Of a DNA stretch of 64,000 bases, positions 7,376 through 44,972 are shown in pieces (positions within the stretch are counted from its first letter, which is position 1; the number at the start of each line of letters is the position of its first letter). The translations under genes and the position numbers were made by a program. This stretch comes from Chloroflexota bacterium. Its GTDB lineage: Bacteria > Chloroflexota > Dehalococcoidia > Tepidiformales > Tepidiformaceae. The DNA lies in assembly GCA_026705605.1 (NCBI GenBank), contig JAPPAK010000001.1:62001-126000 (forward strand), given 5' to 3'. The notes beneath the pieces were generated by a model that was given only the letters and a program-made list of their open reading frames with translations, ran no database searches and was not told the origin of the DNA.

Positions 7376-8191
7376 ATGCCAGGCAGAGTCGAGGGCAAGG
7401 TCGCGATCGTCGTCGGAGCCGGCCAGACGCCGGGGGCTACCATCGGCAACGGACGCGCCACCGCCATCCTCCTCGCCCGCGAAGGCGCCGCCGTCGTCGT
7501 CGCCGACCGCGACCTCGCGTCCGCCGAAGAGACGGTCGCGATGATCGTGGAGGAAGGCGGAACCGCCGGCGCCTGTCAGGTCGACGCCACCAGCGAGGAG
7601 AGCCTCGCCGCCATGGTTGCCGAGACGCTGGCCCGCCACGGCGGCCTCGATGTCCTCCACAACAACGTCGGCGCCAGCGTCGGCGCGGGCGACGCCTCCC
7701 CCATGGAGATGACCGAGGAGGGCTTCGACAACATCGTCGCCCTCAACCTGAAGAGCCACTGGCTCGCCTCGCGACAGGCCATCCCCGCCATGCGCAAACG
7801 TGGCGGCGGCTCCATCGTCAACATCTCCTCGATGGCCGCGCGCCACGCCTACCCCTTCCTCGGCTACAAGGCCACCAAGACCGCCCTCCTCGCCCTCACC
7901 GAGCAACTCGCCGCCCAGCACGCCCGCGACAACATCCGGGTGAACGCCATCCTCCCCGGCGCCATGAACACCCCCATGGCCATCGAGCCGCGCGTCGCCG
8001 CCGGTGCCGACCGCGCCGAGCTCGTGGCGAAGCGCGACAGCCGTATTCCCCTCGGAGGCAAGATGGGCACCGGCTGGGATGTCGGCTACGCCGCCCTCTT
8101 CCTCCACTCCGACGAAGCCCGCTTCATCTCCGGCGTCTCCCTCCACGTCGACGGCGCCGAGCACGTCAGCGACAACGTCGCCGGCCAGTAG
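7376..8191 (+). CDS. SDR family oxidoreductase
   Basis: VAIVVGAGQTPGATIGNGRATAILLAREGAAVVVADRD...YKATKTALLALTEQLA. Confidence 0.88.
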   Translation: MPGRVEGKVAIVVGAGQTPGATIGNGRATAILLAREGAAVVVADRDLASAEETVAMIVEEGGTAGACQVDATSEESLAAMVAETLARHGGLDVLHNNVGASVGAGDASPMEMTEEGFDNIVALNLKSHWLASRQAIPAMRKRGGGSIVNISSMAARHAYPFLGYKATKTALLALTEQLAAQHARDNIRVNAILPGAMNTPMAIEPRVAAGADRAELVAKRDSRIPLGGKMGTGWDVGYAALFLHSDEARFISGVSLHVDGAEHVSDNVAGQ

Positions 8192-35740: not shown

Positions 35741-36229
35741 GTGAAAAACATCTATGATCCGTGGCGAGCAACTGAGATGGTCACGGTCCAGCACAGCGAA
35801 GACGAGGAGAAGTACGCCGAGCTGAGCCTGCGCCTGCTTCAGCAGGCGCAGGAGGAGTTCGATAAAGGCGACCGCCTCCAGGCCTCGGAGAAGGCGTGGG
35901 GTGCGGCCGCCCACGCCATGAAGGCCGCCGCCGAACGCCGAGGCTGGAACCGCGGCAAGCACCGGCACCTCTTCGCCGTTGCCGGTCAGGTCGCGGATGA
36001 CGCTGACAATCCCGAAGTCCGACGGCTGTTCAGCATGGCCAGCTCCCTGCACCAGAACTTCTATGAGGACTGGCAGACCGACACGTCCGTGCAGGAGGGC
36101 CTCGGGGAGGTGAGGCGGCTGGTGGAGCTCATGGAAGAACTGCGTGCCCAGCCCGTTCGCCCCTCTGTCGTCACCGACGAGCAGCAGTGGCGCACCCTGA
36201 CCGAGCCTGCTCGCCAGCGAGCTACCTAG
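35741..36229 (+). CDS. PaREP1/HEPN-like protein
   Basis: LLQQAQEEFDKGDRLQASEKAWGAAAHAMKAAAERRGWNRGKHRHLFAVAGQV. Confidence 0.6.
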   Translation: MKNIYDPWRATEMVTVQHSEDEEKYAELSLRLLQQAQEEFDKGDRLQASEKAWGAAAHAMKAAAERRGWNRGKHRHLFAVAGQVADDADNPEVRRLFSMASSLHQNFYEDWQTDTSVQEGLGEVRRLVELMEELRAQPVRPSVVTDEQQWRTLTEPARQRAT

Positions 36230-40506: not shown

Positions 40507-40636
40507 TGCTCGTCCTCCTGCCCCCGACGCCGCCCGCCGCAAGCAGATTCGCGCGTCATGGTAGCCGTTTGCCAGACTGCAAGGGCGCGGCCCTAGAAAC
40601 TTCGCTGAGATGGCAAGACCGTGTAGCCTGCAAAGA

Positions 40637-42430
40637 ATGGCAGAGCCGCACATCCGCATCTTCGTCAGCTCGGTGATGACCCAGGGGTATCTGAGCAACG
40701 AGCGAAATGCAGCCTGTGAGGCGATCGAGTCCCTGAAGCTGACTGTCCCGTGGGACTTTGCCCGCGAGCCAGCCCAGGCGGCTACCCCCGGTGCGGCCGC
40801 ACTTCAAGAACTTGCCCTCAGCGACATTGTTGTCCTGATTCTCGGCAACAGGCACACCCCACCTGTACAGGAGGAACTTGACGAGGCCGAGCGCCTCGGA
40901 AAGCCGATCCTCGCCTTTGTCGAGCGAGTGCCGAGCTCTGATGAGTCAAGTGAGCGGCAGGGTGTGGTTGCGTGGTTACGTGACCGTGTCAAGTACCAGG
41001 AATTCCTTGGCCTTGAACAGCTCAAGCGAGAGGTCGTGGCCGCTGTGCGGAAGGAGCTGGTTGATGGCTATCGTTCCCGATATCGGGACCGGCTGAAACC
41101 TGACGACATTCGGGAACTGACCCACGTTCAATCCACACCTGGCCTGCTCGTCCGGCAAGCAAAGGCAAGTGATCGCGACGCCGTGAGGGAGACGCTCATG
41201 GAGCTTGAGCAGTGGTATCCCGACATCCGGCAATGGGTTGAAGAGCGCCTCGAGAGCATCGATGAAGCGGATGACATCCGCGTCGCGGAGATGGATGGGG
41301 AGATCGGGGCCGTCGTTGTCGTGAGAAGCAAGAGCGACGACATCCGCAAGTTCGCCACTCTCTACGTGCGACCCACTGCGCGTGGCGCAGCGATTGGGCC
41401 CCACATCGTGCGGGAAGAGGTACTTCGTGCGGCCGAGGAGGGTGTTCGCAAGGCATACGTGACGTGCGCCGACGAAATCGCGGATCGCCTTGTCCCCATC
41501 CTCGCCCAGAGTGGATTCACACCCGAGGGGGTCTCCCGCGGGCGATATCGCGACGGTGCCGCGGAGTGGGTACTGGGGAAGAACTTTGTCTACGGAGAAG
41601 TCACCCCTTCAGACTTCCTGGACTTCGTGAAGACCCGGATGGTCACCGAGGCGGGAGGGGAGATTGTTGAAGACCAGGGCAACGTCTTTTCTGCTCGACT
41701 TCCCCGGCTTGGCTTGGCTGGCAGTGCGAGACCGGAACTGATCTGGTATGTGGTCTCTTCGGGGGACAGGCCTGAGGAAGACTACGTAGCGTACAAGGGG
41801 CGCTTCGAGCAGCAGTCGTGGACCTTCGTGAGCCTTGGAGGTCGGCCGGCAGATGTTTCCCATGAACTCCATGAGGCCGAGGCGTGGATGGATGCTGCCG
41901 ACCTCTCCTCGCAGTTCTACCCTGTGGAGCTCGCGAGCCACGGACAGCGGTCGTTGATTGTCACTATCCGGCCTGAGTTTGCTCAGGAGTTGATTCCATC
42001 AAGCCGAGCGCCGTCCATGCTGCCTCCGACTCGTCTGCAGGTTCGACCTGACAACGTCTACTACCGGGCTCCCGATCGGTACCAGGAGTTACGGAGGGGC
42101 TCCCGACTATTCTTCTACGTTAGCGATCCTGAGCAGCGCATTCGTGGCAGTGCCGGCATAACCGATGTCTTCGTGGGCAACCCCGAGGATTGCTTCGCTC
42201 GCTACGGCACGAGGGGCCTCTATGACTACCAGCGCCTTGAGGACATTGCCCAGAACCACGACGGAAAGGTGCTGGCCATCGCCTTTGACTGGTACCGTGA
42301 GTTCACGGCGGGGGTCAATCTCCCCAGGCTGCGCAGCATTATCCCGAACTACAACCCGCAGTCTGCCTATCTGGCAAGCGCCGAGTACGCGTCGGCCATC
42401 CTCCGAGAGGGATTTCGCCATGCAGAGTAG
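40637..42430 (+). CDS. DUF4062-like + GNAT + PUA/ASCH-like multidomain protein
   Basis: N-term IRIFVSSVMTQGYLSNERNAACEAI...SDIVVLILGNRHTPPVQEELDEAERLGKPILAFVE; middle LLVRQAKASDRDAVRETLMELE...ATLYVRPTARGAAIGPHIVREEVLRAAEEGVRKAYVT; C-term RGSRLFFYVSDPEQRIRGSAGITDVFVG. Confidence 0.7.
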   Translation: MAEPHIRIFVSSVMTQGYLSNERNAACEAIESLKLTVPWDFAREPAQAATPGAAALQELALSDIVVLILGNRHTPPVQEELDEAERLGKPILAFVERVPSSDESSERQGVVAWLRDRVKYQEFLGLEQLKREVVAAVRKELVDGYRSRYRDRLKPDDIRELTHVQSTPGLLVRQAKASDRDAVRETLMELEQWYPDIRQWVEERLESIDEADDIRVAEMDGEIGAVVVVRSKSDDIRKFATLYVRPTARGAAIGPHIVREEVLRAAEEGVRKAYVTCADEIADRLVPILAQSGFTPEGVSRGRYRDGAAEWVLGKNFVYGEVTPSDFLDFVKTRMVTEAGGEIVEDQGNVFSARLPRLGLAGSARPELIWYVVSSGDRPEEDYVAYKGRFEQQSWTFVSLGGRPADVSHELHEAEAWMDAADLSSQFYPVELASHGQRSLIVTIRPEFAQELIPSSRAPSMLPPTRLQVRPDNVYYRAPDRYQELRRGSRLFFYVSDPEQRIRGSAGITDVFVGNPEDCFARYGTRGLYDYQRLEDIAQNHDGKVLAIAFDWYREFTAGVNLPRLRSIIPNYNPQSAYLASAEYASAILREGFRHAE

Positions 42431-42890
42431 GGAGCCAAGGCGGATAGTCTTGGCAATTCACGGTCGGCATGCGCGTGCCATCTTGGCTGGTAGTAAGACT
42501 CATGAGCTTCGCCGGAGGCTCCCGGCCCTCTCTGCCGGCGACTGCGTGTATCTCTACGAGACGGCGCCGGAGTCCGCCGTCATTGGTGGTTTTCGCGTCA
42601 AAGGGGTCAGGCGCGAGTGCCCCAAGGCTATGTGGGATCTCGTTGGCGAAGATGGATTCAAGATCTCCAAGTCGGAGTTTCAAGCCTACGTGGATGGGGC
42701 GACAGAAGTGGTTGCCATCGAAGTCGCCGACCCGTTCCGCCTACGCCGTTCCGCCTCGGTGGCAGAACTTGCAGGTGTTGACTCCGCGTTTCGACCTCCA
42801 CAGAGCGCGACTTTCCTTCGGAGTAGCACTTTGCTGGCCCACTTGCAGGCGCTCGCCCGCAGCCTCCACTCCGTTACTGCCTCCGCCTAG
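42420..42890 (+). CDS. ASCH/PUA-like domain protein
   Basis: RIVLAIHGRHARAILAGSKTHELRRRLPALSAGDCVYLYETAPESAVIGGFRVKGVRRECPKAMWDLVGEDG; overlaps upstream gene by 11 nt. Confidence 0.75.
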   Translation: MQSREPRRIVLAIHGRHARAILAGSKTHELRRRLPALSAGDCVYLYETAPESAVIGGFRVKGVRRECPKAMWDLVGEDGFKISKSEFQAYVDGATEVVAIEVADPFRLRRSASVAELAGVDSAFRPPQSATFLRSSTLLAHLQALARSLHSVTASA

Positions 42891-44552: not shown

Positions 44553-44585
44553 GCGTTTGTGGCATCATGAGTGGCGAGGACTGAA

Positions 44586-44972
44586 ATGATTGTCACCGTC
44601 ACTGTCCGTGCCCGCTACTGCGACGGAACGCTGCAGCTGCTCGAGCCCCTCGATGTCGTCGACTTCGAGGAAGGCGCCGAGGTTGCGATGACGGTTCGCG
44701 GGATACTCCCGCCCGAGAGCAACGATGACCCGGACGACGCCTGGGCCGACCTGGACCGATCGCTCCGCGAGCGGCGGAATGGTCCCTCGGTCACCACCGC
44801 CACCTTCTGTCGAGGCGCCTTTACACCGGCAACGCCCCTGCAGTTCGAAGAGGGCGAAATGGTCAGGCTTACGGTAGGCAAAGTTCCGCCCGGCGAAGGC
44901 GAAGCAGACGAACTCATCGAGATAACTTTCGAACACCGGGTCACTAGTTCACGACCCGTGCCGGTCCCGTAA
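44586..44972 (+). CDS. DUF104/AF2212-like antitoxin-type protein, two copies of the motif
   Basis: VRARYCDGTLQLLEPLDVVDFEEGAEVAMTV and FCRGAFTPATPLQFEEGEMVRLTV. Confidence 0.55.
   Translation: MIVTVTVRARYCDGTLQLLEPLDVVDFEEGAEVAMTVRGILPPESNDDPDDAWADLDRSLRERRNGPSVTTATFCRGAFTPATPLQFEEGEMVRLTVGKVPPGEGEADELIEITFEHRVTSSRPVPVP

Follow-up and report, generated by a model that had tools for sequence, protein, structure and literature searches.

A DUF4062-GNAT-ASCH protein with an overlapping ASCH gene in a Dehalococcoidia genome: a candidate anti-phage system of a known kind with a DUF4062 N-terminus

Introduction

Two overlapping genes of the window (the whole 64,000-nucleotide stretch of Chloroflexota DNA that was analysed) raise the question of whether a DUF4062 domain joined to GNAT and ASCH domains belongs to an anti-phage system, and which of these domains would act in it as effector. 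Bell et al. 2020 (PMC7641849) described pairs of the kind (PIN)-GNAT-EVE + ASCH, without experiments, and regarded them as putative modules of defence or of toxin-antitoxin type; DUF4062 is not mentioned in that work. In the literature searched, no activity, trigger or antiphage protection was reported for GNAT-EVE/ASCH pairs, and DUF4062 was found alongside an acetyltransferase only in a plasmid description. According to a 2026 preprint, DUF4062 proteins are TIR-like NADases that break down NAD+ by hydrolysis and act against phages through abortive infection, the Swarozyc antiphage NADase working through a conserved Glu (PMC13174449); its main text mentions neither GNAT nor ASCH.

Results and Discussion

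Domain organization of gene A

Two open reading frames with an overlap of 11 nt, as first annotated, were confirmed. The features of the locus are the following:

40637-42430 (+), gene A, DUF4062-GNAT-middle domain-ASCH/EVE protein of 597 aa (ORF, Pfam, profile comparison, Foldseek, models)
40655-41071 (+), DUF4062 (TIR-like NADase family) domain, residues ~7-145 (Pfam PF13271; predicted fold)
40874-40876 (+), E80 codon, putative NADase catalytic Glu (invariance in homologues; motif)
41144-41584 (+), GNAT acetyltransferase-like domain, residues ~170-316 (profile comparison, Foldseek)
41600-41887 (+), middle alpha/beta domain, residues ~322-417 (model; gap against PIN-GNAT-EVE)
41924-42409 (+), C-terminal ASCH/EVE (PUA-superfamily) domain, residues ~430-591, with Y494 and an N-P-Q motif at 573-575 (model, profile comparison)
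42420-42890 (+), gene B, ASCH protein of 156 aa, overlapping gene A by 11 nt (ZmASCH match, PADLOC PDC-M11B)
40574-42888 (no strand), whole inserted segment, ~2.3 kb (empty site in same-genus genomes; GC3)

The DUF4062-type N-terminus was recovered by Pfam with 31.3 bits (cut-off 24.7), and the model predicts a five-strand alternating beta/alpha fold for it. For the GNAT and ASCH domains, the Pfam scores of gene A itself were weak, but other routes gave strong support. The GNAT region of the model matched GNAT structures (Foldseek, E ~1e-6), and a homologue with the same layout (L138) scored 38.7 for GNAT, above the Pfam cut-off of 20.7; in the protein of genome G584 the cut-offs were passed by DUF4062 and GNAT alike. 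The acetyl-CoA motif of gene A, R249-G-A-A-I-G254, is only partly canonical, and reads QGLGVG in L138. The middle domain is well predicted (H-E-E-E-H-E in the model) and kept in all four DUF4062-GNAT-ASCH proteins.

The full-length model, built from three sequences, had a poor C-terminus (pLDDT 56), and residues 319-597 were modelled again from 31 sequences (pLDDT 82.8, pTM 0.81). The best PDB match of this second model was ZmASCH (E 1e-9, TM 0.74-0.81), and gene A thus ends with an ASCH/EVE domain of its own, in agreement with the PUA/ASCH-like segment annotated at first.

A sigma-70 promoter scan gave no match. The sequence GTGTAGCCT is common to window positions 40610-40660 and to the same-genus genome G004 (L041 ~7460-7500), just 5' of the gene A ATG, and is possibly the -10 box of a leaderless transcript.

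Relationship to (PIN)-GNAT-EVE and ASCH pairs

The PADLOC models PDC-M11A and PDC-M11B matched gene A (E 4e-17) and gene B (E 1.4e-21), respectively. As in that family, a GNAT is followed by a C-terminal EVE/ASCH domain within one protein, and there is a second ASCH gene, which overlaps gene A here and is overlapping or adjacent in known systems; gene B is a member of PDC-M11B. In the profile comparison, residues 173-591 of gene A could be aligned with PIN-GNAT-EVE (profile residues 163-498, E 2.9e-13), to which they are homologous, and no alignment was obtained before residue 173. Since the part that follows PIN aligns and the N-terminus does not, DUF4062 occupies the slot of PIN, a domain that marks one subtype and is optional in the family. 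Gene A also differs in its middle domain, ~95 extra residues that fall in a gap of the comparison and are missing from PIN-GNAT-EVE, and the window pair has no adjacent AAA_17 gene, unlike (PIN)-GNAT-EVE systems. On these sequence comparisons, the pair is a known kind of candidate anti-phage system, the novelty being its DUF4062 N-terminus.

The putative catalytic residue of DUF4062, E80, was invariant in 15 DUF4062 sequences and also in the four DUF4062-GNAT-ASCH proteins; from the motif it would be the equivalent of E97 of KpSwz. Gene A therefore resembles Swarozyc in an N-terminal DUF4062 with a conserved Glu, which makes it a candidate antiphage NADase. KpSwz carries a C-terminal portal-binding HTH/winged-helix auxiliary domain, whereas gene A has GNAT and ASCH instead, together with a partner gene. 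The source genome encodes one more DUF4062 protein (G000:C5, L146:3318-5981, minus strand), in which the DUF4062 domain is joined to a weak NACHT-like NTPase and resembles its counterpart in gene A (A1 profile, E 5.9e-20).

The ASCH partner

Gene B, the overlap of which with gene A is ATGCAGAGTAG, was identified as an ASCH protein, as had been claimed, by its close homology (phmmer, E 3.7e-14) to ZmASCH (PDB 5gus), an ASCH protein of Zymomonas that acts as a single-strand RNase (PMC5615036). Gene B aligns with this structure over residues 7-136, and Y47, Y90, Q127 and S128 of ZmASCH correspond to Y46, Y90, Q128 and S129. Among the nuclease residues compared, Tyr47 and Ser128 are kept, but Lys53 is replaced by Ser (S52). 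Residues Y46, Y90, P127 and Q128 were invariant among 16 homologues of gene B. ZmASCH was studied alone, while gene B belongs to a gene pair.

The ac4C amidohydrolase YqfB has an ASCH fold and a Thr/Ser-Lys-Glu triad with T24 as nucleophile (PMC6972931). Its fold is shared by gene B and its K21 and R26 positions are kept as K26 and R31; however, the nucleophile is replaced by E29, a Glu found in 16/16 gene B homologues. Hydrolysis of ac4C in the manner of YqfB was considered for gene B and rejected, being unlikely with an invariant Glu in that position. The protein tree of gene B was mostly unresolved and is compatible with one as well as with several origins of the DUF4062 form.

Distribution

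Three overlapping samples of Chloroflexota (196, 400 and 393 genomes) were searched. DUF4062-GNAT-ASCH loci were found in four genomes of three Dehalococcoidia families, namely that of the window, G004 of the same genus (59%), G173 (46%) and G584, always with an overlapping ASCH gene. A genome-wide scan with a three-sequence alignment returned only two relatives already known, and no DUF4062-GNAT-ASCH protein was detected in the viral contigs, phage records or plasmid records searched.

Other homologues of gene B are paired with PIN-GNAT-EVE, GNAT-PIN-GNAT-like-EVE or GNAT-EVE alone. At L005, L010, L019 and L140, proteins of ~670-710 aa with the order GNAT-PIN-EVE, and perhaps a degenerate GNAT before EVE, are paired with the gene B ASCH family. 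In viral loci, GNAT-EVE lies directly upstream of the ASCH gene in 79 of 80 cases, and nearly all of the viral GNAT-EVE proteins have ~350-370 aa and no N-terminal effector. Plasmid homologues of gene B mostly adjoin a GNAT-EVE gene; one has an Eco29kI restriction-modification pair on one side and McrBC-like genes on the other. Versions of gene B with an HTH-ASCH organization occur in Alphaproteobacteria.

In an E. coli lambdoid prophage (L018:3947-5375), a GNAT-EVE/ASCH pair is flanked by a CI-like repressor and by Bet/Exo-like genes. Of 5426 complete E. coli genomes, 989 had a match to this pair, and in 275 of them the match covered at least 80% of the query.

Insertion site and foreign origin

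The G+C content of genes A and B is 0.609 and 0.613, and their GC3 values are 0.70 and 0.67 versus 0.93-0.96 in five neighbours, which bears out the lower GC content that had been noted by eye. The pair had also been said to interrupt P450 and carboxylase genes: it lies between the two but inside neither. In six same-genus genomes without the pair (five with flanks ~86-96% identical, and G008 with ~77-80%), the P450 and carboxylase genes are joined by ~4-30 bp at this site, showing gain or loss at one site. Low GC3 and the empty sites in relatives were together counted in favour of horizontal acquisition.

The pair of G004 (GC 0.545) is found at the same P450-side junction, and the two pairs may have been acquired either once or separately. 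Genome G005 has a different insert of ~0.8 kb at the P450/carboxylase junction (L039 ~1822-2662), the ORF of which may encode a superoxide-dismutase-like protein; the junction is a possible insertion hotspot. No target-site duplication was seen by eye at the insert ends, no mobility gene was found at the chromosomal locus of the window pair, and no defence island was found in the examined flanks of the DUF4062 loci, which sit among metabolic genes. The locus is flanked by a PaREP1/HEPN-like protein (35741-36229, plus strand) and an AF2212-like (antitoxin-type) small protein (44571-44972, plus strand).

Proposed function and alternatives

We propose that the window pair is a horizontally acquired anti-phage cassette, with GNAT-ASCH and gene B as sensor or marker and the DUF4062 NADase as effector, a reading to which we give about an even chance. 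The GNAT-ASCH part of gene A and the translationally coupled gene B would bind RNA or modified nucleobases as a sensing or marking unit; infection would engage or disturb this sensor and release DUF4062, which would hydrolyse NAD+ and stop the infected cell, by abortive infection or in a toxin-antitoxin-like way. Gene B would be a regulator or co-sensor. The role of DUF4062 as NAD+-depleting effector is suggested by the NADase preprint together with the invariant E80, and that of a defence cassette by the matches of both genes to the PADLOC models and by the viral and plasmid pairing of GNAT-EVE with ASCH. Both DUF4062 and ASCH were supported by the domain searches, and the patchy distribution of the pair is not that of a conserved housekeeping operon; on these two points the first-pass annotation had exposed itself to refutation, and its conflict or defence role and foreign character are retained.

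The part of that annotation which made the GNAT an RNA-acetylating effector is possible but not the best fit, because the N-terminal slot, with a PIN RNase in relatives and DUF4062 here, resembles an effector position, and DUF4062 proteins have proved to be antiphage NADases (PMC13174449). In such a scheme, the GNAT would acetylate aminoacyl-tRNA or other RNA chosen by ASCH, as some GNAT toxins do with aminoacyl-tRNA (cited in PMC7641849), and DUF4062 would be a regulatory or oligomerisation domain. The GNAT fold supported by Foldseek and the homology of gene B to an ssRNA-binding RNase agree with it; nevertheless, it is considered unlikely, since RGAAIG is only partly canonical and its fourth residue is K or R in relatives, DUF4062 carries a putative catalytic Glu of its own, and phage GNATs are common without an N-terminal effector, where marking or counter-defence fits at least equally. 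Base modification, given a similarly small chance, follows what Iyer et al. 2013, as cited in PMC7641849, proposed for GNAT-EVE: the GNAT would acylate a DNA or RNA base, the two ASCH domains would read the mark, and DUF4062 or PIN would attack cells or nucleic acid according to whether the mark is present or absent. Modified bases are bound by ASCH/EVE domains, and HTH-ASCH fusions and restriction-modification neighbours would suit this scheme, but no modified base is known, and erasure of ac4C by gene B is unsupported, T24 of YqfB being an invariant Glu in the ASCH family of gene B. A purely selfish addiction module, not directed against phages in particular, in which gene A is the toxin and gene B an antitoxin-like RNase or repressor, appears quite improbable: the gene overlap, the Alphaproteobacterial HTH-ASCH versions and the patchy distribution agree with it, but the chromosomal site is empty in relatives and has no mobility gene, and the DUF4062 proteins assayed until now act against phages.

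For the preferred cassette reading, the phage-borne copies without an N-terminal effector imply that the GNAT-ASCH core must have its own function, and the RNase activity possible in ASCH members means that DUF4062 need not be the sole effector. More broadly, and as a rather doubtful extension, GNAT-ASCH with its ASCH partner might serve to detect chemically marked nucleic acid in general and be combined with interchangeable killers (none in phages, a PIN RNase in many bacteria, a TIR-like NADase in the window pair); if so, the window pair would be the first case of a DUF4062 NADase controlled by nucleic-acid chemistry.

Significance

Since their first description, the role of GNAT-EVE/ASCH pairs has stayed undecided, despite matches to the lambdoid prophage pair in ~18% of complete E. 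coli genomes. The alternation of an RNase family with an NADase family at the N-terminus points to an effector slot there, and the replacement of PIN by DUF4062 suggests a swappable-effector design. A readout of NAD+ would be a simple way to find what the GNAT-ASCH unit senses, and DUF4062 NADases would in this way be linked to another type of sensor, in addition to portal binding.
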